DNA from: a virus
Strand: one strand, 5' to 3'
Length of the DNA stretch: 34,404 nt
IMG/VR virus record: IMGVR_UViG_3300047121_000648
Span: 1 to 34,404 of that record
The notes below the pieces were generated by a model. That model made no database searches, was not told the DNA's origin, and was given only the letters and a program-made list of their open reading frames with translations. The number at the start of each line of letters is the position of its first letter. Position 1 is the first letter of the stretch. A program made the position numbers and the translations under genes. This document shows, one piece after another, positions 5,688 through 20,318 of the stretch.

Positions 5688-6261
5688 TTCTTGTTAGCCC
5701 TCTCCAGTGCCTTTTCTTCCGCCTCTTCCAAGGCCGTCAACGTCTGATGCGCTACGATGAAATCCTCGTAGCTCCAAGCCGTTTCGAGCTCTTGCATGGT
5801 CACGGTGAGCTTAGGGCTCAAGAGCAAACGGAACACGGGCCAATGCTCTTCCGTCAATGCGGAGAAGCGCGCCGTTACTCCGTTGCGCTTGGACTTGTAA
5901 CGGACGCGATCGTTCCAAGCCCCGGAAAAAAACCCGCAAAGTTTACCTCAAGACAGAACACAAGCCACTGCAGCATTTCCGGGTACTTTGCAACGAAGTG
6001 CGCATCAAAGATACTATCCAGCTGCGGGGCCTTGCTCCCGTAATCTCCTCCGGTAACTGCAGTGTGTTTTGCGAAGGTGTCGCAGAGAAACTCGAAATCC
6101 TCTTCCAAGCTCTCGAGCGCTTTGGCCACGTCCAAGCCTTTGACGGCTGCAGGGCCAAGTGTCTTGGCAAGTCGCGCGAACACCTTCCTGCCGGTCAACG
6201 CACCCAGCTGCGTAACGCGATAGGTGTGGACCCCGATAACCTTGTCTTTCGTCTCTCGCAT
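5684..6261 (-). CDS. Tail assembly chaperone, long form made by -1 frameshift
   Basis: The zero-frame product runs 6261-5875. At 5926-5932 the minus-strand RNA reads U UUU UUU in phase with the zero frame, a perfect slippery heptamer. Slipping -1 after residue 112 gives an 80-residue extension starting SGAWNDRVRYKSKRNG and ending EKALERANKK, with TGA at 5686-5684. The 192-aa fusion contains 'FSALTEEHWPVFRLLL' and a charged C-terminal helix. It ends in a GTGA overlap with the tape measure start. This copies the lambda gpG/gpGT logic: both forms coat the tape measure during tail assembly. No frameshift measurement is possible here, but frame, heptamer and overlap agree. Confidence 0.85.
5875..6261 (-). 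CDS. Tail assembly chaperone, short (unshifted) form
   Basis: 128 aa. N-terminus 'MRETKDKVIGVHTYRVTQLGALTGRKVF' has the pattern of contractile-phage tail chaperones, followed by 'LVKGLDVAKALESLEEDFEFLCDTFAKHT'-like helices. Without frameshifting it ends 16 residues after the slippery run. It is translated upstream of the tape measure and is expected to be made in excess over the long form. The ATG has no Shine-Dalgarno sequence; TAGTCT stands 6 nt upstream within a 29-bp repeated element. Confidence 0.87.
   Translation of the reverse strand: MRETKDKVIGVHTYRVTQLGALTGRKVFARLAKTLGPAAVKGLDVAKALESLEEDFEFLCDTFAKHTAVTGGDYGSKAPQLDSIFDAHFVAKYPEMLQWLVFCLEVNFAGFFPGLGTIASVTSPSATE
5926..5932 (-). other. 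Slippery heptamer UUUUUUU for -1 frameshift
   Basis: Seven A's on the plus strand read as GGU UUU UUU CCG on the mRNA. A tandem slip leaves both tRNAs paired with UUU and continues with UCC in the -1 frame, which stays open for 80 codons. Confidence 0.82.
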
Positions 6262-6266
6262 GGCCA

Positions 6267-6295
6267 GAGACTAGGCGCGAAGTGTCAAAGCAAAG
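6267..6295 (-). promoter_or_regulatory. 29-bp repeated start-proximal element, copy 1 (tail chaperone)
   Basis: 25 of 29 bases match the copy at 22453-22481. On the coding strand the shared core is TTTGACACTTCGC-NN-CTAGTCTC, ending 5 nt before the ATG. It contains TAGTCT at 6268-6273, 6 nt from the start, and a TTGACA 9 nt further up, too close to be a normal -35. A terminator-like hairpin lies just upstream (6294-6331). Likely a promoter with an attached activator or operator site. Confidence 0.55.
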
Positions 6296-6785: not shown

Positions 6786-8096
6786 TTAGGCCGAGACGGT
6801 CCCTGTGATGTCTGATGCGTGGACCGCGCCAGCAAGACGCCCACTAAGCGAGATATCCGGGAGCAAGCGCGTAGCGCGTACCGTCGGATCAATCTCGGAA
6901 ACCTTGGGCGCAGAGCTCACGGGCGCCGGGTCTGCGGCAAGGATCGTGGCGCGAACAGCGTCTTTCAAAGCGCCGTCGATAACCGAGAGCACGGACGTAA
7001 CGCCCGCGTCCGTGTACGGCGTTTTGCGTTCGTTGACGAACTTGGAGAATACACGGAACTTGATCTCCGCCCGGAGCCAGTCCAGCCCGTGCGTGACATC
7101 GATAAACTCTCCGGAAGCCGTCACACCCTCTTGCGTGATATTCACGCCTTCGACAGGCACGTAGGTGTTGCAGTTCTTGGCTTTCGCGTTGGCTTGCTTG
7201 CCTGCAGAGAGATTGTCTGCGGGGATGCCTGCAAGGGTCTTGAACTTCCACGTGCTCGAGCCCGGGGGCCACGGGAAGCCCTCGCCAAACCAAGCTGCAG
7301 CCGAGTGAGACAGGAGCTGCCCAGAGAACAGCACACCCGAGCGCGCGTAAGCGGAAGCCTTGAGCACCGAAGCCACGTCAGTGGTCACGGTGTTGTCAAG
7401 AACACCTCCGTCCAGGGTGTTCAGGATCGCAAGCTTCCCGTTAGCCTCCGCCCAAGCTGCGATCGCTTGGCACTCCGCCTTGCTCGGGGCAATCGCGGTA
7501 AGACCGTACCAGTCCGGATCTTCTGCAAAGATGGCTGCGAGGTCCGTAGCGAGACCGGGGTCTGTAGTCGTGTTCGTGAAAACGAAGTTGTCCGAAAGCC
7601 CGGAGACATCTTCGTAGGTGCCGGCTACGCCGTTGGTAAACGTAATCGTGTCGGAAGATGCGGAAAACTCAGAGTTAGCCCCGTCCACTGCTTCAAGCAA
7701 TAGCTCGATAGCTGCGGCTACCGTGGTGGTAGTTGCCGAAGCCCCAACGGTGTACGTGATCGGGGTGCCCGCAAAGGTAATCTTGTATACTGCACCCTCT
7801 ACAGCCGAAAGACACTTGAGGGTGAAAGCCTGCGTAGGAGCAAGCGCCCGGCGGCCGATCTTGATCTTCTTCGGCCGGGGGTTCTGAGAAAAGATCGCCT
7901 GCGCCGCCTTGTAGGCGGGGTGCGTGACGGCGAAACCCGCGTCCGTCATTTCCTTGGTGGACGCGTACGCTTGCGTCCGAGACGTAAACCCCGCGGGCAC
8001 GCCATTGGCCAGAATCAGCGGAACACCGAAGCCCGGCTTCGTGGGCGTGGTGGTTTCTGCCGTAATCGACAGATTGACAATGTCTTCCAGGGGCAT
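6786..8096 (-). CDS. Contractile tail sheath protein (DUF3383-like)
   Basis: 436 aa. N-terminus 'MPLEDIVNLSITAETTTPTKPGFGVPLIL' is typical of DUF3383 sheath proteins. Further family features are 'FAVTHPAYKAAQAIFSQNPRP', 'KKIKIGRR', 'ADPDWYG'-like 'EDPDWYGLTAIAPS', and the C-terminal 'DGALKDAVRATILAADPAPVS'. It proves a myovirus-type tail. First gene of the minus-strand tail operon. No Shine-Dalgarno sequence; TAATCT stands 6 nt upstream of the ATG, and operator A overlaps the presumed -35 zone. Confidence 0.9.
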   Translation of the reverse strand: MPLEDIVNLSITAETTTPTKPGFGVPLILANGVPAGFTSRTQAYASTKEMTDAGFAVTHPAYKAAQAIFSQNPRPKKIKIGRRALAPTQAFTLKCLSAVEGAVYKITFAGTPITYTVGASATTTTVAAAIELLLEAVDGANSEFSASSDTITFTNGVAGTYEDVSGLSDNFVFTNTTTDPGLATDLAAIFAEDPDWYGLTAIAPSKAECQAIAAWAEANGKLAILNTLDGGVLDNTVTTDVASVLKASAYARSGVLFSGQLLSHSAAAWFGEGFPWPPGSSTWKFKTLAGIPADNLSAGKQANAKAKNCNTYVPVEGVNITQEGVTASGEFIDVTHGLDWLRAEIKFRVFSKFVNERKTPYTDAGVTSVLSVIDGALKDAVRATILAADPAPVSSAPKVSEIDPTVRATRLLPDISLSGRLAGAVHASDITGTVSA

Positions 8097-8151: not shown

Positions 8152-8328
8152 ATGAATGCGGACACACGTAGGGCGATCCACGCTGCGCTAGATCACGTGC
8201 TTGATGCGATAGCCGAGGGAGAGAAGCAGCGCCCCAAGAGGCGCCGCGTGCGGCCCGTCCCCCCTGCCCCAGACCCTGAAACGGAGCAACACGTGAGAGC
8301 CGTGCTAGAGCGCGCCGGGTTCCAGTGA
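8152..8328 (+). CDS. 58-aa protein coupled to integrase (excisionase-like position)
   Basis: MNADTRRAIHAALDHVLDAI, then a basic patch 'KQRPKRRRVR', a proline stretch and a C-terminal helix 'ETEQHVRAVLERAGFQ'. No recognised domain. Its TGA overlaps the integrase GTG (GTGA), so the two are translationally coupled. Position and charge would suit a recombination directionality factor or integrase partner, but nothing in the sequence proves this. Confidence 0.68.
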   Translation: MNADTRRAIHAALDHVLDAIAEGEKQRPKRRRVRPVPPAPDPETEQHVRAVLERAGFQ

Positions 8329-9719
8329 GTGTCACCCGCCAAAACAGCCGAGGGAAAGTGCGCTACTGGGTGCGCAGTGCGCCCGATGCCCAGGGCAAGC
8401 GGCACTCCCTAGGGACGTACGACACGCCCGAAGAAGCCGAAAAGATCGATCGGGGCGCGGCGCATTTGCTCGCCACAGGAACCGTAAAGCAGGTGGGGCG
8501 CACCTCCCTAGGGGACTTCGGCTTGCGCGTTCTCGACCTTCGAGAACTTGACGGGGTTCGAGGTGTTGCAGGGGAGCGCCGAAGGTTCCGACGACACGTA
8601 GCGCCCACGGCATTCGCTCGAATGGCTATCGAGCGCATTCGGCCCGTGGACGTGAGCACTTTTCTTCGGGCCGTCTCCGCTTCGCAGGCTGCAGACCGTA
8701 GGGAGGCGCGCACGATATCCAGGCAAACGACGCAGCGCGTGCTTTCCCTCGTGTCTACGATCTTCGCCGAAGCCGTATCGCAGGGCTTGATTGATGCCAA
8801 CCCCTGCATAGGGCTTCGAGTCCGAACGAAGGGAGTAGCAGAGACTACGCGCGAAAAGTGGACGTGCCTTACGCCGGAAGAGCAAAGCATGCTCCGGCAA
8901 ACGTCTGCGATCCCACTTCACTACCGGCTGATGATCCGATTTGCGATCGGCACCGGGCTGCGCCAGGGGGAGCAATGGTCACTCGAGTTGCAAGACTTGA
9001 TTGTGCGGGGGGAAAACCCCCACGTGCACGTGCGCTTGGGCGCCAAAGGGTTGCCCCCAAAAAGCGGCAAAGCTCGCAGAGTGCCGCTGTTCGGGGACGC
9101 GTTGGAGGCTGCGAGGGAGTGGCTAGCGCTGCTACCCCGCTGGGCGCCGTCTAACCCCGAACGGCTCGTGTTCCCCACGGCTTCGGGTGCACGTCGCCAA
9201 GTGGGCAAGCTCGTCCGACACGACACGTTCAGGGCGCTGCTACGGGCCGCAGGCATCCTTCGGCCGGTTCGCTGGCATGACCTGCGGCACACGTGCGCTA
9301 GCTCGCTAATCGCGGGATGGTGGGGGCACCGTTGGACCCTGGACGAAGTGCGTGCACTGCTAGGACACTCCTCTGTCACAGTGACGGAACGCTACGCGCA
9401 CCTAGGAGAGACCGCGCTACGGGCCGCTGCGAGGGCTACGAGCGCAGGTTACCCAGTGGTTACCGTGCCTCCGGAAGCGCTCCCAGTTTTCGCCGGATTC
9501 CCTAACGATATCAAAGCTGCAGGGGCTGGGGGGCTCGAACCCACGACCTGCGGATTTGGAAGGCCCGGAGAAAGCCTAAGATATCAAGCACCTGGAGCGG
9601 AAACAGGGGACGGTAACCCCTCCGTAACCTCCGAAAGAATCCGAGGGATTAGGGACTCGGGAGACATCGAAGCAGCTTTAGCGCTTGCCCTGTCGCTGCT
9701 ATCCAGCCTACGAAAATAA
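8325..9719 (+). CDS. int: Tyrosine-family site-specific integrase with attP in its 3' end
   Basis: 464 aa. An N-terminal arm-binding-like region (residues 1-50, 'VRYWVRSAPDAQGKRHSLGTY') and a core-binding helical part (about 60-165) precede the catalytic domain. Visible active-site residues are R213 (TGLRQGE), K249 (SGKARRVP), H318 and R321 (HDLRH), H348 (LGHSS) and Y357 (ERYAHLG). Residues 399-412 are encoded by a segment complementary to a tRNA-Trp 3' half, so attP appears to lie inside the gene; recombination there would replace the last ~50-60 residues. Known precedent: myxophage Mx8 has attP inside its integrase gene. The GTG start overlaps the preceding TGA. Confidence 0.95.
   Translation: MSVTRQNSRGKVRYWVRSAPDAQGKRHSLGTYDTPEEAEKIDRGAAHLLATGTVKQVGRTSLGDFGLRVLDLRELDGVRGVAGERRRFRRHVAPTAFARMAIERIRPVDVSTFLRAVSASQAADRREARTISRQTTQRVLSLVSTIFAEAVSQGLIDANPCIGLRVRTKGVAETTREKWTCLTPEEQSMLRQTSAIPLHYRLMIRFAIGTGLRQGEQWSLELQDLIVRGENPHVHVRLGAKGLPPKSGKARRVPLFGDALEAAREWLALLPRWAPSNPERLVFPTASGARRQVGKLVRHDTFRALLRAAGILRPVRWHDLRHTCASSLIAGWWGHRWTLDEVRALLGHSSVTVTERYAHLGETALRAAARATSAGYPVVTVPPEALPVFAGFPNDIKAAGAGGLEPTTCGFGRPGESLRYQAPGAETGDGNPSVTSERIRGIRDSGDIEAALALALSLLSSLRK
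9520..9561 (-). other. Putative attP core: tRNA-Trp 3' half inside int
   Basis: The minus strand fits tRNA numbering base by base: anticodon loop TTCCAAA (anticodon CCA), TCCGC stem strand, AGGTC variable, GTGGG, TTCGAGC T-loop, CCCCC, AGCCCCT acceptor strand and G73 at 9520. CCA anticodon plus G73 identify tRNA-Trp. There is one T50/C64 mismatch and no 5' half, so it is not a gene. After G73 the sequence reads CAG rather than CCA. Confidence 0.75.
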
Positions 9720-10880: not shown

Positions 10881-11570
10881 CTACCCGCGCCCGAACCAAG
10901 TGCGCAGCTCTTCTGGCGTGCCTCGGAACAGGTTCCTGTCACAATCCACCCCCACACCCGGCACGCGATACCCTTTGTTGCCGCTGTATTGCCACATGTC
11001 CCACTGCGTCCAAGGCTTGGGGGGCTTGGCCCATTCGACGTTCTTCGCCGTGGGCGCAACGGGCCGCTCGAGAGAGAAGTACTGCGCTAGCCAAAGCCGA
11101 GCACGGGCCAACCGCGAGCTCTGCGAAAGGGCCGGCTGTATCTTCGCAGCGAAGCTGGGGTACGTGTAAAATACAGCGTCTGCAGCTCCGTACGTATCGA
11201 GACGGTCTAAGAACTTCTCTGCAAAGTCGACAACGCGGCTCGGCTCCCACGCAAAAAAGGAAGGGTCTTCCAAGTCGAGCACGGGCCGGGGGAGCCACAC
11301 CGAACCCACGGCCTTTAGCAGGTTGTCCGCTTGCGCGACAGGATCGCCCGGGCGCGCGTAGCCGTACACCCCTACGAGTAGACCCGCAGCTTGACACCCT
11401 GCAATGTGCTCTTCAGCCTTCGGATCGATATACCGAGGGCCTTCGGAGCCCTTGACGATACAGAACCTAAAGCCCGCTTCCCGCACGCGCTCGTATTCCG
11501 CCGGGTGTTGGAGCATCGAGACATCAATGCCGTCAACGAACCCTGGGATATTGAGCGCGCCCAGGTTCAA
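10881..11570 (-). CDS. GH25 muramidase endolysin
   Basis: 229 aa. 'GFVDGIDVS' (Asp16) at the N-terminus, 'VLDLED' (Asp99, Glu101) and C-terminal 'MWQYSG', 'VDCDRNLF' are the GH25 lysozyme signature; the enzyme cuts the MurNAc-GlcNAc bond of peptidoglycan. No signal peptide, so release would need a holin, and two small membrane proteins lie just upstream. No separate cell-wall-binding domain; the final ~20 residues are a short tail. The TTG start at 11570 is chosen because it overlaps the TGA of the preceding gene (TTGA); a later start before 'GFVDGIDVS' is possible. Confidence 0.93.
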   Translation of the reverse strand: MNLGALNIPGFVDGIDVSMLQHPAEYERVREAGFRFCIVKGSEGPRYIDPKAEEHIAGCQAAGLLVGVYGYARPGDPVAQADNLLKAVGSVWLPRPVLDLEDPSFFAWEPSRVVDFAEKFLDRLDTYGAADAVFYTYPSFAAKIQPALSQSSRLARARLWLAQYFSLERPVAPTAKNVEWAKPPKPWTQWDMWQYSGNKGYRVPGVGVDCDRNLFRGTPEELRTWFGRG

Positions 11571-11740
11571 GGCGCGAGCTCCGCTTTTGCGCGTTCGTCA
11601 TACGCAGCAGTGATCCCTTTCTTGATCGCTGCCTTGATCGCGTTCTTGTCCGCGCCCTTGGATTCGATCGCTTCATAGATCACTTCGATCAAGTCGAAGT
11701 GCTCCAAAAGGAACGCGAGAACCTTAGCCGCTGCGCTCAT
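11567..11740 (-). CDS. 57-aa hypothetical protein in the lysis cassette
   Basis: MSAAAKVLAFLLEHFDLIEV..., two amphipathic helices with a basic C-terminal half ('KNAIKAAIKKGITAAYDERAK'). Too hydrophilic for a holin. ATGA overlap with the gene before and TTGA overlap with the lysin after. May regulate lysis or be structural; unknown. Confidence 0.7.
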   Translation of the reverse strand: MSAAAKVLAFLLEHFDLIEVIYEAIESKGADKNAIKAAIKKGITAAYDERAKAELAP

Positions 11741-12144
11741 TCGATCCCCGCGTCTGCTTTGCAGGCTTCGTAATGCTTGCGACCCCCGTCCGCTTTACCT
11801 TCCGCAAAGCAGCGCTCCAGAGTCGACGTGTGCGATCCGATCTCCGCATAATCAGCCGGCCCAAGACCGCTCGAGCACGAGATCAGCGAAGCAGCCGGAC
11901 CGATCAAAAGGACCCCCAGCACCACAGCTGCAGCGCCCCCCGCAATGACCTTCAACGCAGGGTGGCCCCCTGCAGCGGGGGGCCCGTTCGGAGGATCGCG
12001 ACCCATCAAGAAGGCCAAGATCGTAGACACGACAGAAGCCGCGCCCGCAGCATCAGGACCAAGAAACTTGTAACATGCAACAGTCGCAGCAAGGGCAGCT
12101 ACGAGCACCAAGGCTTGCTGCCAAGTGATATTGCGGAAGCTCAC
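11737..12144 (-). CDS. Two-TM protein, holin candidate
   Basis: 135 aa from GTG 12144, which overlaps the TGA of the preceding small gene (GTGA). A longer frame continues upstream but overlaps that gene and has poor codon content. Predicted membrane segments are about residues 9-26 (ALVLVAALAATVACYKF) and 78-103 (VIAGGAAAVVLGVLLIGPAA). A soluble tail with 'LERCFAEGKADGGRKHYEACK' follows. Immediately upstream of the lysin gene, so a holin or lysis accessory role is likely. Confidence 0.68.
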   Translation of the reverse strand: MSFRNITWQQALVLVAALAATVACYKFLGPDAAGAASVVSTILAFLMGRDPPNGPPAAGGHPALKVIAGGAAAVVLGVLLIGPAASLISCSSGLGPADYAEIGSHTSTLERCFAEGKADGGRKHYEACKADAGIE

Positions 12145-12320
12145 TTCGACACCCGCTTTCGGCGGGCGGGCGTGCTGTGCTGCAGGTACGCAAGGTACAG
12201 CTCTGTCAAGTCCTTTTGCATGTACGTGACCTTTTCTTCCAGGCTGGAAATCTTGCCCGAGAGGAACCAAGCCGCGCCTACCACGGTGCCCATAGCGGAA
12301 AGAAACGCGAGAATATCCAC
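12141..12320 (-). CDS. 59-aa one-TM protein, lysis cassette
   Basis: GTG start at 12320. 'MDILAFLSAMGTVVGAAWFL' forms one membrane segment; 'SGKISSLEEKVTYMQKDLTEL' forms a short coiled coil; the end is basic (ARRKRVSK). It resembles small holin or antiholin subunits with one TM plus coiled coil. First gene of the lysis operon; no Shine-Dalgarno sequence, with TAGTCT 6 nt upstream. Confidence 0.72.
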   Translation of the reverse strand: MDILAFLSAMGTVVGAAWFLSGKISSLEEKVTYMQKDLTELYLAYLQHSTPARRKRVSK

Positions 12321-12326
12321 GGCCCA

Positions 12327-12332
12327 AGACTA
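12327..12332 (-). promoter_or_regulatory. TAGTCT -10-like box for the lysis operon
   Basis: TAGTCT, then TGGGCC, then the GTG at 12320. Operator B (12343-12365) covers the expected -35 position. Confidence 0.55.
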
Positions 12333-12342
12333 GTGCTTGCAC

Positions 12343-12858: not shown

Positions 12859-13064
12859 CGCTGGACGAAAAGATCTCCAAGCTCCTCCTAAGAATCGGAA
12901 ACACAGAGATATCGGAAGAGAGCGAAGCACTAGCCATGGCCCGTGCTTATCGGCTACTGATGCGACAGCGTCCGGCCCTTCTTGCCGTGGTGGCTGCAGC
13001 AAGATCGGGAGACTTCGACCAAGTGGCCCGTGCGCTTTCCGAGCTTGACAGAGTCAACGGCTAG
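12855..13064 (+). CDS. 69-aa helical hypothetical protein
   Basis: All-helical: 'MTLDEKISKLLLRIGNTE', 'ALAMARAYRLLMRQRPALLAVVAAARSG', 'DFDQVARALSELDRV'. No family recognised. Its TAG stop shares the palindrome CTAG with the stop of the convergent lipoprotein gene, so the two stops overlap. Confidence 0.65.
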   Translation: MTLDEKISKLLLRIGNTEISEESEALAMARAYRLLMRQRPALLAVVAAARSGDFDQVARALSELDRVNG

Positions 13065-13555
13065 TCGGCTAGCAGCCGATCGATGCCCTGCGCATCGGAG
13101 CCCGAGAACATCAACGTAGCGCGCCCTTCCCGCGCGTCTTCGGCCCGGCACTCTGGTACGCCGTGTTCCTCTTCCGTCTCGGCTACCCGAGCTCTTAGGA
13201 CTTCCAACGTAAGACCGTGGGGCGGAGTGGCGTTGCACGTCACGTCTAGCCCCTTAGCCGTGCAATGCGCCCGGGTCCAACGGTACAGCTCCGCCGTCTC
13301 TGCCAAGCGCGCCCGGTACGCCCGAAGAACGTCTTGCGCGCGCTCCTTGCGATCTGCGTAGGTTTCGGCGCAGCTCGCTACGTGGACAGGCTCTTGCACC
13401 TTCGGCGCCTTCCTTGGCACTTGCGAGGGCGCAGCGGGGCCGTACAGGGCTTTTGCTCTCGCCACTTCCGCCGATGCGTCTAGGGGCGCCGGGCGCGCAC
13501 AAGCGCCAAGAGTTGCTAGTACAATGGCCAAAGAAACGTACTTGCTAATCCACAT
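13061..13555 (-). CDS. Phage lipoprotein, spanin-type candidate
   Basis: 164 aa. Signal peptide 'MWISKYVSLAIVLATLGAC' with lipobox LGAC (Cys19), so the mature protein should be lipid-anchored. The mature part is Pro-rich (about 30-55), then helical ('DRKERAQDVLRAYRARLAETAELYRW', 'LTLEVLRARVAETEEEH'), with five cysteines. An exported lipoprotein with a long helix in the lysis neighbourhood recalls o- or u-spanins, but there is no C-terminal TM and the gene is separate from the lysin operon. Other surface roles are possible. Confidence 0.75.
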   Translation of the reverse strand: MWISKYVSLAIVLATLGACARPAPLDASAEVARAKALYGPAAPSQVPRKAPKVQEPVHVASCAETYADRKERAQDVLRAYRARLAETAELYRWTRAHCTAKGLDVTCNATPPHGLTLEVLRARVAETEEEHGVPECRAEDAREGRATLMFSGSDAQGIDRLLAD

Positions 13556-13556
13556 T

Positions 13557-13568
13557 TGCTACTAGCCT
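13557..13568 (+). promoter_or_regulatory. TAGCCT box with operator half-site before GTG 13575
   Basis: TGCTACTAGC (13557-13566) matches one arm of the operator family; the other arm is not recognisable. It overlaps TAGCCT (13563-13568), which stands 6 nt before the GTG of the plus-strand gene. The minus-strand lipoprotein ATG (13555) lies directly beside it. Confidence 0.42.
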
Positions 13569-13574
13569 ATCACT

Positions 13575-13730
13575 GTGGCTCAAGTTGTCCCGTCGCTGGG
13601 GATCATTGTCGAACGGCTCCCCTCTGGGAGGTACACCGCCCTCGCACCTTGGATGCTCGAGCCCCTCGAAGGCGCATCTTGGTTTGATGTCTATCACGCG
13701 TGCATGCGCGTAAAAGCGCTAGCCCGTTAG
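13575..13730 (+). CDS. 51-aa hypothetical protein
   Basis: GTG start; MAQVVPSLGIIVERLPSGRY..., ending 'WFDVYHACMRVKALAR'. Reads like a small folded protein rather than random sequence. No Shine-Dalgarno sequence, but TAGCCT-N6-GTG precedes it. No family recognised. Confidence 0.5.
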   Translation: MAQVVPSLGIIVERLPSGRYTALAPWMLEPLEGASWFDVYHACMRVKALAR

Positions 13731-13757
13731 GGTTTGCTAGGGATGCCCGAACCCTAG
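13727..13757. terminator. Hairpin between convergent genes
   Basis: TTAGGGTT ... AACCCTAG inverted repeat with a 14-16 nt loop between the ends of the 13575 gene and the metzincin gene. No clear T tract, so termination is uncertain. Confidence 0.35.
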
Positions 13758-14269
13758 GGACACACCCCGGCATCTCGACAGACGCGCAAGTCTCCGTCCC
13801 CGAAGCGTTCGGCGTCGGCTGTGTATTCTGCACTCATGATCTGACTAGAGCTTCCGGTGTGCTTCACACCAAGCACGTGCCCTAGCTCGTGCATAGCAAT
13901 CTGGCGGAAACGCCCGGGCACCGTGTCTGCAATCCTCTCCGCATTGAGCGTTACGCGAGCTCCTAGCACGAGCTGTCTTGTGTGCCCGAGAGAGTACACA
14001 ACGCGCATGTTCTCATCAGCCTTTACGGCTTCGGCTTCGTTGCCCTCGCGTACAATCTCTACTTGCCCGTCCGGAGACTCGAAAAAGAAAGCGTGCCCGC
14101 TAGAGAACCTTGCCCATTCGTCGAATGCCTGCAGGATTTCCCGGCGCTCTTCTGCAGTGAATCGGGGATCGATCTTCACTGAATAGGGACGCGTAGCGCA
14201 GCCCGTTACAGTGCGCGCGGGCACGCACGCTGCCACTAGCAGAGAGAGCACAAGAATCCAGGGCTTCAC
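13754..14269 (-). CDS. Metzincin-type zinc metalloprotease lipoprotein
   Basis: 171 aa. Signal peptide 'MKPWILVLSLLVAAC' with a lipobox ending at Cys15. The catalytic motif HELGHVLGVKH (residues 127-137) matches metzincin HExxHxxGxxH, and 'SSQIMSAEY' supplies the Met-turn (Met145). Matrixin-like layout in a short domain of about 150 residues with no propeptide. The product should be exported and lipid-anchored. In a phage it could aid lysis, entry, or act as a lysogenic conversion factor; the substrate is unknown. Start is GTG after TAGCCT-N6. Confidence 0.85.
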   Translation of the reverse strand: MKPWILVLSLLVAACVPARTVTGCATRPYSVKIDPRFTAEERREILQAFDEWARFSSGHAFFFESPDGQVEIVREGNEAEAVKADENMRVVYSLGHTRQLVLGARVTLNAERIADTVPGRFRQIAMHELGHVLGVKHTGSSSQIMSAEYTADAERFGDGDLRVCRDAGVCP

Positions 14270-14275
14270 CCCAAA

Positions 14276-14281
14276 AGGCTA
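14276..14281 (-). promoter_or_regulatory. TAGCCT -10-like box before the metzincin gene
   Basis: TAGCCT, then TTTGGG, then GTG 14269; the TAG is also the fibre stop codon. The context is nearly the same as at 17841: both read CTAGCCTT-NN-GGGGTGAAGCCC. Confidence 0.4.
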
Positions 14282-16117
14282 GGCCGCTTCGTCCGAAGCT
14301 GCGGCGACGGTAACCCTAGCCGACCTTGACGCTTTGCCCGTCCAACGCGCACCGGTCATGCCCACAGCCGAAACCCTTGCAGAACGTGAAGCCTTGCCCA
14401 CTAGCCGAGCCACCACGATCGGAGCTGCAGCTCCGCCAGTAGCGCTAAGAGTGCAGGCCCCCAGGGTCGCTGCGAGGGTGCCGACGACGGGAGCGACACC
14501 CGCAGCGCTAAGAGTGCACGCGCCTAGGGTCGCCGCTAGCGTGCCCCTTGAAGGAGCGACACCCGCAGCGCTCGAAGTGCACGCGCCGAGAGTTGCCGCA
14601 AGCGTGCCGACGACGGGCGCCACACCCGAAGCGCTCGAAGTGCAAGCACCCAACGTGCGGGACAATGTGCCAGCAATTGGCGCAACACCCGCAGCACTGG
14701 AAGTACACGCGCCCAGCGTGCGGGACAATGTGCCAGCAACTGGCGCAACACCCGCAGCACTAGCGACGCAAGCGCCCAACGTGGCGGAGAGAGCGCCGGA
14801 AACGGGGGCAAGAGCCGAACCGGTAGCGCTAAGAGTGCACGCGCCTAGGGTCGCTGCGAGGGTGCCGACGACGGGCGCGACACCCGCAGCACTCGAAGTA
14901 CACGCGCCGAGAGTTGCCGCTAGCGTACCCCTCGAAGGAGCAACACCCGCAGCGCTCGAAGTACACGCCCCTAGAGTTACCGCTAGCGTGCCCCTTGAGG
15001 GCGCAACACCTGCAGCACTCGAGACGCAGGCACCCAGCGTAACGGAGAGCGATCCGATCGCAGGGGTGCCCCCTCCTGTCGCGCTAAGAGTGCAAGCACC
15101 CAGCGTTGCCGCAAGCGTGCCGACTACGGGCGCTACACCCGCAGCACTCGAAGTACACGCGCCGAGAGTTGTAGCTAGCGTGCCCCTTGAAGGAGCCGCA
15201 CCCGCAGCGCTCGAAGTACACGCGCCGAGAGTTGCCGCTAGCGTACCCCTCGAAGGAGCAACACCCGCAGCGCTCGAAGTACACGCCCCTAGAGTTACCG
15301 CTAGCGTGCCGACAACGGGCGCAGCCCCTAGTGCATACCGGGCAATTGCGTACGTTTCTAGTGCATCGAATTGCGCATCAGTAAGAGGCTTTTGGGCTAG
15401 CCCGATCTCTAGAATCTGGGCGTTTAGGAACGCCGTAAAGTTGTAGTTTACACCTACCCGGAGACAACGTTCAGGGGCGCTGAACATGTCGGGCATTGCC
15501 ACGCTAGACCAAGGGCCCCCATCAACACGAATCGAAAGCAGCCCCGTAACAGGGTTCCAGCGGGCTTGTACGATATGCCAATCAGTCGTACCTACCGAGA
15601 CGTAGGGAGTAACGTCCGGCGCACCGGTACCGTATTGGTGCGCTCTAACACCGCTGGCACTTGCAGTGATGCCCACCACGCTTGCGCCATCTTGAGCGAT
15701 GAGTGCGGGCTCATCATAAAAATTGGTGTCTGCAGCTAGCGCACCGAACTTGGCAACAAAGTGCGCGCTCCAACCCTTTTCAGGGGAGAACAGATCTTCA
15801 AGGTGCGCACCAAGTCCAAAGGACGTGCCGGTCGTTAGAGAATCATCCGTGCCGTCAAAGGACGCAGGTGCGTAGCCGTTGACCGTCGCACCTACGGAGG
15901 GTGCAATGCCGCTCGATAGCGGGAAGACCTGCCCCCCTCCTTCGGCAGACCAAGGGCTGCCCGAGTAGCTCGAGCGCCACCACACCATGGGCAGATCCAA
16001 CGGGAACACCCCGCCGAAAACTGAGGCCTGAGAAAAGGCCTTTGTAGCGCCCTGCGTAAGCCCGGCCCGCGTAAGATTCGCGAGTGAAAGCAACCCGCCT
16101 ACGGAACGCCTAGGCAT
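14279..16117 (-). CDS. Repeat-rich tail fibre/adhesin with lectin-like domain
   Basis: 612 aa. Residues about 80-262 look like a concanavalin/LamG-type beta sandwich ('SFDGTDDSLTTG', 'WSAHFVAKFG', 'WHIVQARWNPVTGLLSIRVDGGPW', 'RVGVNYNFTAFLNAQILEIGL', then the usual closing 'LTDAQFDALETY'). Residues about 270-562 are 14 repeats of ~21 aa built on GTLAATLGACTSSAAGVAP, each with one cysteine. The end has two 'GKASRSARV' units. Likely a host-binding or virion surface protein. The repeats would allow length change by recombination. An AGGGG site overlaps the stop codon of the gene before. Confidence 0.75.
   Translation of the reverse strand: MPRRSVGGLLSLANLTRAGLTQGATKAFSQASVFGGVFPLDLPMVWWRSSYSGSPWSAEGGGQVFPLSSGIAPSVGATVNGYAPASFDGTDDSLTTGTSFGLGAHLEDLFSPEKGWSAHFVAKFGALAADTNFYDEPALIAQDGASVVGITASASGVRAHQYGTGAPDVTPYVSVGTTDWHIVQARWNPVTGLLSIRVDGGPWSSVAMPDMFSAPERCLRVGVNYNFTAFLNAQILEIGLAQKPLTDAQFDALETYAIARYALGAAPVVGTLAVTLGACTSSAAGVAPSRGTLAATLGACTSSAAGAAPSRGTLATTLGACTSSAAGVAPVVGTLAATLGACTLSATGGGTPAIGSLSVTLGACVSSAAGVAPSRGTLAVTLGACTSSAAGVAPSRGTLAATLGACTSSAAGVAPVVGTLAATLGACTLSATGSALAPVSGALSATLGACVASAAGVAPVAGTLSRTLGACTSSAAGVAPIAGTLSRTLGACTSSASGVAPVVGTLAATLGACTSSAAGVAPSRGTLAATLGACTLSAAGVAPVVGTLAATLGACTLSATGGAAAPIVVARLVGKASRSARVSAVGMTGARWTGKASRSARVTVAAASDEAA
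14431..15310. repeat. 14 tandem ~63-bp repeats within the fibre gene
   Basis: In-frame repeat array encoding the GTLxxTLGACxxSAxG unit. Units differ by a few bases; some blocks (for example those near 14840-15000 and 15120-15300) are almost identical, which suggests recent duplication. Coding repeats, not CRISPR. Confidence 0.88.
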
Positions 16118-16120
16118 AGG

Positions 16121-16930
16121 TTACCCCTGCGAAAACGCAACGTTGCCGGAAACAGTCACTGCAGTAGTAGCAGTGGGCAGCCAAAGAAGGCTAAGGGTCG
16201 TGTTGTCGTACAGACGGACGAACTTGGTAGCGATCGCGTCTAGCTGCGCTCCAACGTTCGCAACGGGCAGAGACAAGCGCGCAAGCTCTCGGTATGCGAC
16301 CAAGTGCACAACGCCCGTCACGAGAGACGTGCCAAGGGTGAGCGATGCCACGGCGCGCACGCCCGTGTCCCCGGCCGCAAGCTGGAACGGCACGAACGTG
16401 CCCGCTGCAGCCGTCGCAGGGAAAGAAGCCATCGTAGCCGTACGTCCCGCTGTTCCGGCCGCGTTCGTATAGGACGCGGTCATATTCGTGATGGCGCCCG
16501 TGTTCGTTGTAGCTGTGGAAACTTCGATGCCTAGGTATACGCCTGCCCCGTCAGTGCTCCCGTTACGGTCGCGTGCGGGGAACGCAGCTGACGTTACGGT
16601 CTGCGCCGTCGTCGTTGTAACGGTGAAGCCGGAGTTGTCCCAAAGCCGATCTACAAGGATCAGTTGTCCCGCAGCGTTAGATCCTGCTTCTAGGGCTGCG
16701 AGGTAAGAAAGGTTTGCCCCGGCAGGTGCGGGCACCGTAATAAGACCTGCGCGCGAAGTGATTGCAGCGCCGGCAAGACCCGAGCTAGGCGCAGCCATGG
16801 CGCCCGGCAAACCGGAAGCGTACGCAAGCGAATGAAGCACGCCCGCAGCTTCCATTGTCCCACCCACTTTTAGGAAGGAAAAAGGCTGCAACATACCCGC
16901 AAGCGCGCCGTCCAAAGACGTGATCGTCAA
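16121..16930 (-). CDS. Phage structural protein (beta-rich, Ala/Thr-rich)
   Basis: 269 aa. 'MTITSLDGALAGMLQPFSFLK' opening, then low-complexity Ala/Thr/Gly segments, and 'YRELARLSLPVANVGAQLDAI'. The 'lDGalAGm..p..f.K' opening recurs in virion proteins of other phages that lie next to capsid or fibre genes. Exact role unknown. The TTG start at 16930 overlaps the TGA of the 54-aa gene (TTGA). Confidence 0.68.
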   Translation of the reverse strand: MTITSLDGALAGMLQPFSFLKVGGTMEAAGVLHSLAYASGLPGAMAAPSSGLAGAAITSRAGLITVPAPAGANLSYLAALEAGSNAAGQLILVDRLWDNSGFTVTTTTAQTVTSAAFPARDRNGSTDGAGVYLGIEVSTATTNTGAITNMTASYTNAAGTAGRTATMASFPATAAAGTFVPFQLAAGDTGVRAVASLTLGTSLVTGVVHLVAYRELARLSLPVANVGAQLDAIATKFVRLYDNTTLSLLWLPTATTAVTVSGNVAFSQG

Positions 16931-17508: not shown

Positions 17509-17841
17509 TCAGGGGGAAAGCTCGGCTGCGCCGAGAACGTCGATAGCGAAAACTTCCGTGCGAAGGAGATCGCCCGGTGTTGGGGTCTCGAAGGAGACCC
17601 AAACAAACCACTTGCCCTCTTGGTCTAGGTCGCTTGTGGCGAGCACCTTACGGACCGTGATTGAATTCGCGTCTTGGGCGGAGATCGCAGCGGCCCACGA
17701 AACGGATTCCCCGGCTAAGGGCTTTTCCGCGTGCAATGTGGCGCTACTGGGATCTTCCGGATCGAAGTCCGTACTAGCCGGGATCGTGACTTCGATCGCA
17801 TAGGGAGGTCCCATGCCTACGCGCAACTTCGGGGGCTTCAC
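17509..17841 (-). CDS. 110-aa beta-sandwich-like hypothetical protein
   Basis: 'MKPPKLRVGMGPPYAIEVTIPASTD' then alternating strands and 'GKWFVWVSFETPTPGDLLRTEVFAIDVLG', an Ig-like/BppU-like beta pattern. Probably a small virion protein. Start is GTG after TAGCCT-N6; the context CTAGCCTT-NN-GGGGTGAAGCCC is shared with the metzincin start. Confidence 0.65.
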   Translation of the reverse strand: MKPPKLRVGMGPPYAIEVTIPASTDFDPEDPSSATLHAEKPLAGESVSWAAAISAQDANSITVRKVLATSDLDQEGKWFVWVSFETPTPGDLLRTEVFAIDVLGAAELSP

Positions 17842-17847
17842 CCCGCA

Positions 17848-17853
17848 AGGCTA
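17848..17853 (-). promoter_or_regulatory. TAGCCT -10-like box before GTG 17841
   Basis: TAGCCT, then TGCGGG, then GTG. The TAG is also the stop of the 63-aa gene. Confidence 0.4.
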
Positions 17854-18042
17854 GTAGTAGCCCGTCGAACGGTAGTTAGGAGTGACACCCAAGCCGGCTA
17901 GCGCTGCAAGCACCTCGCCGAAGGTGGAAGCGCTAAAGTCGCGATGGGTGCCCCAGCGTTCTGCATGCGCAAACCTCGCGAGCCTTCGGACCCCCGAAGG
18001 ATCGATAGCCCACGCCCTTTTTAGGGTGTTCTTCGAGATCAC
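17851..18042 (-). CDS. 63-aa hypothetical protein
   Basis: 'MISKNTLKRAWAIDPSGVRRLARFAHAERWGTHRDF', basic and helical; no family recognised. GTG start after TAGGCT-N5. Lies in the neck gene run. Confidence 0.6.
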   Translation of the reverse strand: MISKNTLKRAWAIDPSGVRRLARFAHAERWGTHRDFSASTFGEVLAALAGLGVTPNYRSTGYY

Positions 18043-18053: not shown

Positions 18054-18578
18054 ATTCCCTAGGTCTTCCGTGGGATCTTCGATGCTTGCAATATACCCGG
18101 GCTCGCCTTCATCCGGCCCAAGCACGTCAACGATCGCGTAAGCGAATCGCAAATCCAGGATCGCCGAACTTGTGGCCCGGTTATCGATCGTGCTGTCCAA
18201 CGTGGTGATAGACGGGGAATCAACCAGCGCTAGCCCTGCTTCTTCTCTGAGCTCTGCCCTCACACTCGGGCGCATCAAGCGCAGCCGAAGGAGATCTAGT
18301 TCGTCATAGGCCTCCTCAGCGCCGAACAGCTCGAGACGGAAAGAGACGGTCGCGATCCTTCGGCCTACCAGGGTTTCCATAGAAGCCGTGAAATCCCGGT
18401 TCACGTCCACGGTGCCCCTTTGCTGTGTCGCTACGACACTAAGCGTCAACATGCCCACGTGCTCCCCCGGCACGGGCAAAATGAAAGGCTCGGGCTCTCC
18501 GTCCCAAATCACGTTATCATCGTGCACGCTCGTAAGCCGTCGGACGATCGTGCGTAGTGCGTCTTTGGGGAATCCCAC
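18051..18578 (-). CDS. Neck / tail terminator protein (gp12-like, LIC_12616-like)
   Basis: 175 aa. 'VIWDGEPEPFILP' early, central 'RDFTASMETLVGRRIATVSFRLELFG' and 'LDLLRLRLMRPSVRAELREEAGLAL', and C-terminal 'SSAILDLRFAYAIV' fit the neck-terminator family that joins the tail tube to the neck. The order head adaptor - gp10-like - terminator is as expected. GTG start after TAGCCT-N6. Confidence 0.72.
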   Translation of the reverse strand: MGFPKDALRTIVRRLTSVHDDNVIWDGEPEPFILPVPGEHVGMLTLSVVATQQRGTVDVNRDFTASMETLVGRRIATVSFRLELFGAEEAYDELDLLRLRLMRPSVRAELREEAGLALVDSPSITTLDSTIDNRATSSAILDLRFAYAIVDVLGPDEGEPGYIASIEDPTEDLGN

Positions 18579-18584
18579 GAACGC

Positions 18585-18590
18585 AGGCTA
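18585..18590 (-). promoter_or_regulatory. TAGCCT -10-like box before GTG 18578
   Basis: TAGCCT, then GCGTTC, then GTG. Contains the TAG stop of the gene upstream. Confidence 0.38.
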
Positions 18591-19454
18591 GCCCTTGGTG
18601 CCTCCCACGATCTCGCTCCCCCATGTGGCGCGGTAAGCGATCGAAGATCGAAGCTGACCCGTGTCTATGAGGGGCTTACTCGAGCCCTTTCGACGGATTG
18701 TAGAGGGCGCATTGGGCGGGGGGATGCCTGCAGCCATGCGACGTTGGATCTCTCCCACGAACTTCACCCCGAGCAAGTTGAGCACCTGCCCCGGGGTGCG
18801 CTTCCCCGTGACACACGTCTGCATGAGGGACAGGGCTAGCTTGGAATTCTTCGGCCCGTTTTCGTCGAAGTACGCACGCAAGAAAGACCGTTGCGGCACG
18901 TTGCCCGCCCCGAATTCGTTCCACGTCGCAACATCCAAAACAGTCAAGTTCCTACTGGAAGGCTCCTTCGCCGTTCGGCTCGAAGCAGCCGCTTGCTTCT
19001 TTTGCTTTTTGCCTCGGGGATCTGGCTGCTTTGCAGAGATGCTTCTGACGATCTTGGCCTTCTTCTCTTGCCGGCTAAGAGATCGCTTCGCCTTCTTCAG
19101 CGTTTGGCGGAACCTCTTGGATGCGTTAGCTACCCCCCGCTTTAGCCGTTGAAACTTCGAACCTGCAGCGGCTTTTGCCTGCTTCGCAGCGAGGATCTTT
19201 ACCCCTGCTTGTATCTCTGCCCAAGCTGCGGGATTCTGCGAGACAACCCCGAGAGCTGTAGCAGCGGCCCCCTTCGAGATCGTGCCCTCGGCTACGGCTT
19301 TCTCGAGCCCCTGCTTTGCATCCAAGACCCGAGAGTCATGCTTGACGGCCCCGGCGGACGCAAAGACGCCTACTTCAACGTAAGCGCGTCGTCCCTCGCC
19401 ATAGAGGCGCTTCACTAGCTCATCATACTTGGCGCGCTTGTCTACGAAGGGCAC
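18588..19454 (-). CDS. HK97 gp10-like neck/tail completion protein with basic insert
   Basis: 288 aa. 'RAYVEVGVFASAGA' early, then 'TVLDVATWNEFGAGNVPQRSFLRAYFDEN' and the closing 'PSTIRRKGSSKPLIDTGQLRSSI', the typical motifs of virion morphogenesis/gp10-type proteins ('a..nEfG....p.RpFlr', 'liDTGqLr.sI'). A Lys/Arg-rich segment (about residues 100-160, 'KKAKRSLSRQEKKAKI', 'KKQKKQ') is inserted between the halves and could contact DNA. Joins head and tail during assembly. Confidence 0.72.
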   Translation of the reverse strand: MPFVDKRAKYDELVKRLYGEGRRAYVEVGVFASAGAVKHDSRVLDAKQGLEKAVAEGTISKGAAATALGVVSQNPAAWAEIQAGVKILAAKQAKAAAGSKFQRLKRGVANASKRFRQTLKKAKRSLSRQEKKAKIVRSISAKQPDPRGKKQKKQAAASSRTAKEPSSRNLTVLDVATWNEFGAGNVPQRSFLRAYFDENGPKNSKLALSLMQTCVTGKRTPGQVLNLLGVKFVGEIQRRMAAGIPPPNAPSTIRRKGSSKPLIDTGQLRSSIAYRATWGSEIVGGTKG

Positions 19455-19827: not shown

Positions 19828-20099
19828 GTAACCCTGTATCCTTGCGCGACCTTGCGCACGAGATCCGAATAGTGGGTGAAGTAAGTAGAGCCACCGGAAG
19901 CGTTCGACAGTTTCGCGCTGTTGCCGTAGGGGCTAAGGGCAAGCTTGTGCGCTGCGAGGTAGGCGATCCCCTGATCCAAGAGAGTGCCCCAAACCTCCGG
20001 GCTGCACTCGAGCGACGCCGCGGAAATGTGCGCGCTGAGCATGGGATCCGGCACGGACTTGAATTCCGGGAATTGGATCTTGAATTCCGTAAGCGTCAC
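19824..20099 (-). CDS. Head-tail adaptor (DUF4054-like)
   Basis: 91 aa. 'EFKIQFPEFKSVPDPMLSAHISAASLECSPEVWGTLLDQGIAYLAAHKLALSPYG' and the closing 'GSTYFTHYSDLVRKVAQGYRV' match DUF4054, the adaptor that docks on the portal. GTG start after TAGACT-N6. Confidence 0.87.
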   Translation of the reverse strand: MTLTEFKIQFPEFKSVPDPMLSAHISAASLECSPEVWGTLLDQGIAYLAAHKLALSPYGNSAKLSNASGGSTYFTHYSDLVRKVAQGYRVT

Positions 20100-20105
20100 G
20101 GAAGA

Positions 20106-20111
20106 AGTCTA
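20106..20111 (-). promoter_or_regulatory. TAGACT -10-like box before GTG 20099
   Basis: TAGACT, then TCTTCC, then GTG. Contains the TAG stop of the gene upstream. Confidence 0.38.
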
Positions 20112-20318
20112 GGGGACTTCGACTTCGAGGCACTCGGGCAATCTCTGCAGCCACCCTTCTACGCCTCCTGTCTCGTCCTGCACTCCCTTGCCGAACATGC
20201 TGCAAAACCACTGCGTTCCCATGAGATTCGCACGCAAGTGTTTGCAGAACACTCCCTTTCGAAGGGCGCAGGACTTCTCTCCGGCTTCGATCCAAAGCTC
20301 TAGCTTCAGCTTCCGCAC
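20109..20318 (-). CDS. 69-aa hypothetical protein
   Basis: The GTG at 20318 has GAGGG 8 nt upstream; longer frames overlap the preceding gene heavily. 'VRKLKLELWIEAGEKSCALRKG', 'HLRANLMGTQWFCSMFG', ending 'LQRLPECLEVEVP'. Four cysteines. No family recognised. Confidence 0.6.
   Translation of the reverse strand: MRKLKLELWIEAGEKSCALRKGVFCKHLRANLMGTQWFCSMFGKGVQDETGGVEGWLQRLPECLEVEVP

Follow-up and report, generated by a model that had tools for sequence, protein, structure and literature searches.

In Listeria prophages, genes for the metzincin Mtz and the lipoprotein Tim lie downstream of those for holin and lysin (PMC8235301). The catalytically active Mtz-Tim pair enhances phage-mediated lysis, for which protease activity is required, and raises virion release about 5-fold, as shown for Listeria; the pair sensitises cells to holin and lysin, and Tim, a lipoprotein resembling TIMP, is needed (PMC8235301). 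This is the one phage-linked metzincin pair that we found tested in the literature. Matrixins are already known in phages and in public databases, and are barely studied; annotated examples are a matrixin of Maribacter phage Colly_1, a Zn-dependent protease of Lactobacillus phage 3-521 and an M10 peptidase of uncultured Caudovirales. To our knowledge, accounts of how phages lyse Gram-negative cells involve holins, endolysins and spanins, and none of these three is a protease of the envelope.

Here we describe a predicted lipoprotein of the matrixin type (P0001, 171 aa: VKPWILVLSLLVAACVPARTVTGC...IAMHELGHVLGVKHTGSSSQIMSAEY...DLRVCRDAGVCP) encoded in the IMG/VR fragment IMGVR_UViG_3300047121_000648, whose whole analysed stretch of 34,404 nucleotides we call the window. 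The open reading frame that a sequence-only reading had placed at 13754-14269 exists and is here assigned to the minus strand, running from a GTG start at 14269 to 13754; several stops in the corresponding frame rule out the plus-strand reading. By inspection, the protein begins with a short charged start (K) and a hydrophobic stretch, followed by a lipobox V-A-A-C15 that matches the pattern [LVI][ASTVI][GAS]C. The zinc motif HELGHVLGVKH is followed by Thr, as in matrixins, and the Met-turn methionine, M145, lies eight residues past the third histidine (H137), with Y149 beyond it. Among 24 aligned sequences H127, E128, G130, H131 and G134 are invariant, and H137 and M145 are each conserved in at least 90%; E128 is the catalytic glutamate, as previously stated.

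The Pfam Matrixin profile PF00413 matches P0001 over positions 21-141 of 159 (33.2 bits, E 5.6e-8, against a gathering cut-off of 24 bits) and was recovered at 31.9 bits in a search of the whole record. An AlphaFold model computed from an alignment of 24 phage-contig sequences has a pLDDT of 90.8 and a pTM of 0.81. In the PDB it is closest to the catalytic domains of MMPs (MMP-11, E 1.8e-8) and to karilysin (TM 0.63 and 0.66), with an overall TM of about 0.6. The sequence-only reading had proposed the zinc motif and Met-turn behind a lipobox signal; the translation, the profile score and the predicted fold all bear this out, and structure prediction returned a metzincin/MMP fold rather than one lacking the active site. 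Sequence, profile and model thus support P0001 as a predicted matrixin-type metzincin with a lipoprotein signal, probably a zinc endopeptidase whose activity is predicted from its intact site and fold. P0001 falls far under the NCBIfam cut-offs for fragilysin, archaemetzincin, snapalysin and the myxosortase-dependent metalloprotease family, no PHROG family matches it, and a reading as a defence gene found no PADLOC match.

Compared with PF00413 / MEROPS M10A enzymes such as MMP-11 and karilysin, P0001 shares HExxHxxGxxH followed by Thr, the spacing of the Met-turn and the MMP catalytic fold. Unlike solved MMPs, to which it is about 14-22% identical, it totals 171 aa, is predicted to be lipid-anchored and has neither a propeptide nor a hemopexin or other domain. 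With about 11 residues from C15 to the first strand of the domain, a propeptide with a cysteine switch is absent from P0001; this feature belongs to vertebrate MMPs and is not general in bacteria. The Colly_1, 3-521 and uncultured Caudovirales proteins have the same predicted fold as P0001 and differ from it in sequence (12-17% identity).

Besides the sheath and integrase (Table 1), the core genes in the window include those for a capsid protein, a head maturation protease and a VapE-like primase-helicase. Over long aligned blocks, the window is 99.75-99.98% identical to a second contig (G001, 48,060 bases), which carries an identical, intact metzincin gene. Contig G001 is joined differently from the window, breaks in the fibre repeats and adds about 13.5 kb, in which DNA polymerase-like, terminase-like and portal-like genes were recognised by eye. 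From the sheath, the integrase and the comparison with G001, we infer that the phage is temperate, has a contractile tail and measures about 48 kb. Prophages with related sheaths occur in 5 of the 318 genomes of the class to which G016 (Myxococcaceae) belongs, and on this ground Myxococcota is a fair guess at the host and no more; the fetched pieces of these five prophages contained no matrixin. Outside the window, the same phage encodes a 131-aa protein (L005, 12318-12713) with a second zincin-like motif, HEILH; it has a relative in G019 and resembles a small metallopeptidase-like phage protein of the cytoplasm.

Table 1. Position and annotation of the matrixin gene, its neighbours and the start boxes in the window
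Feature	Coordinates	Strand	Evidence or remark
Tail sheath, contractile tail	6786..8096	-	phrog_205 E 3.6e-95
Tyrosine integrase	8325..9719	+	Pfam/PHROG match; marks temperate phage
GH25 muramidase endolysin	10881..11570	-	phrog_291 E 2.2e-31; PF01183 E 3.3e-27
ORF with holin-like membrane stretches and internal lipobox in C-terminal part (P0003)	11737..12342	-	
Membrane-plus-coil ORF, weak Rz-like spanin match	12141..12320	-	phrog_739, E 0.0066
Second predicted lipoprotein, 164 aa, LGAC lipobox	13061..13555	-	Next gene downstream of metzincin
51-codon ORF preceded by CTAGNCT box	13575..13730	+	Opposite gap between the two lipoprotein genes
Matrixin-type metalloprotease gene, predicted lipoprotein	13754..14269	-	Zinc site H127-E128-H131-H137, Met-turn M145, lipid-bearing Cys C15
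Start box CTAGCCTTTTGGGGTG at metzincin start	14267..14282	-	Its TAG is the fibre-gene stop codon
Fibre-like gene, 612 aa	14279..16117	-	Fibre by position, composition and repeats
Start box CTAGNCT-N6-RTG, eight copies	2211-2226, 6259-6274, 12318-12333, 13562-13577, 14267-14282, 17839-17854, 18576-18591, 20097-20112		

The gene had been placed at the edge of the structural block, with fibre genes on one side and lysis genes on the other, and its neighbours agree: the fibre-like gene precedes it, and the second lipoprotein gene, the spanin-like ORF, the holin-like ORF and the GH25 endolysin follow downstream. Metzincin, structural and lysis genes share the minus strand, with a few small plus-strand ORFs between the downstream genes. 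The stop of the fibre-like gene and the metzincin start are 9 bases apart, and the start-proximal box that had been noted here, which reads CTAGCCT, is real. The window has 8 copies of the pattern CTAGNCT-N6-RTG where 0.35 would be expected, and 0 of 100 shuffles reach this number; seven of these copies stand exactly at called minus-strand gene starts, 14269 included, and the eighth precedes the 51-codon plus-strand ORF. The TAG of the box often doubles as the stop of the upstream gene, variants also occur in the relatives L008 and L010, and the box may be an unusual translation-start or regulatory signal. A scan of the minus strand gave no sigma-70-like promoter near the metzincin start, and late co-expression with the fibre gene would therefore be the simplest reading.

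The fibre-like gene contains about 14 tandem 63-base repeats (14450-15323; 21 aa each, with a regular LGAC motif), and it is in this gene that G001 and, among the contigs of relatives, at least L202 are interrupted. The segment at 16121-16930 encodes a structural-type protein found at 20 loci at 42% identity or more; its closest relatives are in phages without the sheath of the present phage, so it has apparently been exchanged as a module. The holin-like ORF has no PHROG match and probably starts internally, and L008, an 82% relative, has a 140-aa version of it. For the 164-aa lipoprotein, no relatives were found beyond the same phage; its single-sequence model is mostly helical and of low confidence, and does not support a TIMP-like fold.

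We propose, by analogy with the Listeria prophage metzincin, that P0001 could be a late, lipid-anchored envelope protease that aids lysis or release, the best reading available to us and one that we hold tentatively, as still short of probable. Coupling to the fibre gene would bring late expression together with the lysis cassette, and the exported protease would be lipid-anchored in the host envelope, perhaps in the outer membrane or at the surface. There it may cut at least one envelope or extracellular-matrix protein, and thereby help holin, endolysin and spanin to open the cell more fully and set virions free. The complete catalytic signature with its Met-turn, the above-threshold Matrixin match and the high-confidence MMP fold are consistent with this, as are the start at a phage-specific box 9 bases past the fibre gene, the endolysin and spanin-like ORF downstream, the Listeria precedent and a composition resembling that of other genes of the same phage.

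Like Mtz, P0001 is a phage-linked metzincin, predicted to be exported, with a lipoprotein gene adjoining and holin and lysin genes nearby; the two proteins are likened by their shared motif only. Mtz, however, carries a Sec/SPI signal and acts on its partner Tim, in Gram-positive cells; in the present phage it is the protease that is predicted to be a lipoprotein. It counts against an accessory role in lysis that the effect in Listeria depends on Tim, whereas the neighbouring lipoprotein is not TIMP-like, as far as its poor model tells. The phage also apparently already has an endolysin and a spanin-like ORF, which leaves no obvious gap among its lysis steps.

Digestion of envelope proteins at lysis was one of three functions put forward from the letters alone, and it fits best, given the tight coupling to a presumably late fibre gene, the lack of a promoter found for the gene itself and the Listeria precedent. 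A change of the lysogen surface, another of the three, is the least supported, since nothing points to expression outside the late operon. A prophage-expressed protease could alter the host surface, or feeding on protein, biofilm or predation, to the benefit of the lysogen, and the integrase would allow for it, as would a closest homologue that is a host-type chromosomal lipoprotein protease from the myxobacterial class. As the minus strand shows no promoter-like site close to the start and the gene is packed immediately behind the fibre gene in a presumed late block, we regard such lysogenic conversion as unlikely.

The adjacency to the fibre-like gene itself invites two further explanations. 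The protease could sit in the tail, or act on the fibre during assembly or entry; but tails assemble in the cytoplasm, out of which a lipobox signal peptide would carry the protease, and we consider this very improbable. Alternatively, an anchored protease could cut the surface receptor of the fibre, such that no second phage enters and released virions are not trapped on debris. The protease would then do enzymatically what the T5 lipoprotein Llp, a published receptor-blocking protein (PMC9586334), does by blocking its receptor FhuA. Llp is not a protease and no homology is claimed; both are phage-encoded lipoproteins, and the parallel in role is proposed only. A block to superinfection, the third function suggested beforehand, is possible, and neighbouring fibre or tail genes in four other unrelated or distant phages agree with receptor clearance. 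The fibre assignment, however, comes from position and composition rather than a profile (no Pfam, PHROG or NCBIfam match), and relatives have the matrixin at a distance from the fibre (G019) or on the opposite strand (G026), leaving receptor clearance somewhat doubtful.

How often do phage matrixins keep such company? The sequence-only reading called the gene unusual in a tailed phage; it is indeed uncommon, but not unique, since small matrixins recur in phage contigs and public phages have a few that are annotated. A scan of viral contigs for HExGHxxxGxxxH returned at least 120 stretches, a set that includes long proteins and probably non-phage viruses; among the matches listed, ORFs of about 140-260 aa number in the dozens, and in many of these a signal peptide or lipobox can be recognised by eye. 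Roughly 20 contexts were inspected. Leaving the window aside, the matrixin lies next to fibre or tail genes in four of them, as supported by profiles in G007 and G009 and as judged by inspection in G026 and G024. In G011 its neighbours are endolysin and holin genes, again with profile support, and inspection by eye adds one or two further cases, G021 among them. These neighbourhoods fit both a role in lysis and, for the tail genes, receptor clearance. The remaining contexts place the matrixin beside terminase, replication or unassigned genes, and terminase, portal or replication genes are the neighbours in G002, G004, G008, G010 and G019, which speaks against a lysis role. A link to lysis or fibre genes is therefore not general, and the counts, made without a background comparison, are suggestive of a tendency rather than a rule.

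No close relative of P0001 was found in viral contigs except in the same phage, none in genome_contigs and none by tblastn against 50,697 phage records, and plasmids gave only weak partial matches (33-36%) in Arthrobacter. None of the 20 syntenic loci reached through 16121-16930 matches the phage-matrixin profile, and PF00413 was absent from all 20 records tested, a set in which 14 were complete contigs containing syntenic loci. These records say little about the lineage of the window phage, as the two closest (L202 and L203) break off inside the fibre-like gene or shortly past it, and six of those tested lack a sheath match. L008 ends about 1 kb short of the metzincin site.

Distant relatives carry matrixins of their own, and, with the intact copy in G001, this answers the concern that the gene might be absent or broken in all relatives. 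Judged from their core genes, G026 and G019 fall within one wide lineage with the present phage (sheath identity 43% and 36%, respectively). In G026 a 153-aa lipoprotein matrixin lies end to end with a 463-aa fibre-like gene; in G019 two different matrixins lie between portal-like and terminase-like genes (L164, 5847-6359 and 7179-7733). G002, with some replication genes in common with the present phage, has a 164-aa lipoprotein matrixin. The lipoprotein signal layout of P0001 recurs in G026 (VSGC) and G002 (LAAC). Two adjacent matrixins are also seen in G020 (L157).

The closest homologue found for P0001 is L183, a chromosomal lipoprotein in a genome of the myxobacterial class of G016. The two share the lipobox (LAAC-VP in L183), the catalytic motif and a C-terminal CxxxGxC, with 32-37% identity over nearly the whole length; unlike P0001, L183 sits among ordinary chromosomal genes with no recognisable prophage. 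A tree of phage and host matrixins does not resolve, with host-type genes intermixed, and repeated capture from hosts fits best. The metzincin looks like a captured, repeatedly acquired accessory gene. Such a gene could also be a recent passenger with no selected role in the phage, as its patchy presence, the differing sites in window phage and distant relatives, and the mixed tree would allow. The intact catalytic site and fold, the phage-like composition, the phage start box and the recurrence of matrixins in three lineages with core genes common to the present phage make this improbable. We thus rank an accessory role in lysis or release first, followed by receptor clearance, then a change of the lysogen surface, and last no selected role and virion processing; the sequence does not tell the first two apart.

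In a broader context, Gram-negative phages may repeatedly have recruited host lipoprotein matrixins as a distinct, membrane-anchored accessory module for lysis or receptor clearing that cuts envelope proteins late, a generalisation we offer as possible but rather unlikely. If true, the recruited matrixins would be a proteolytic step outside the standard holin-endolysin-spanin scheme. With at least 120 candidate stretches in viral contigs, the question of function is broadly testable. With a lipid-anchored matrixin near its lysis genes, this presumably Gram-negative phage takes the Listeria case further, and such a protease, recurring at different sites in distantly related phages, would bring proteolysis into virion release or receptor handling.
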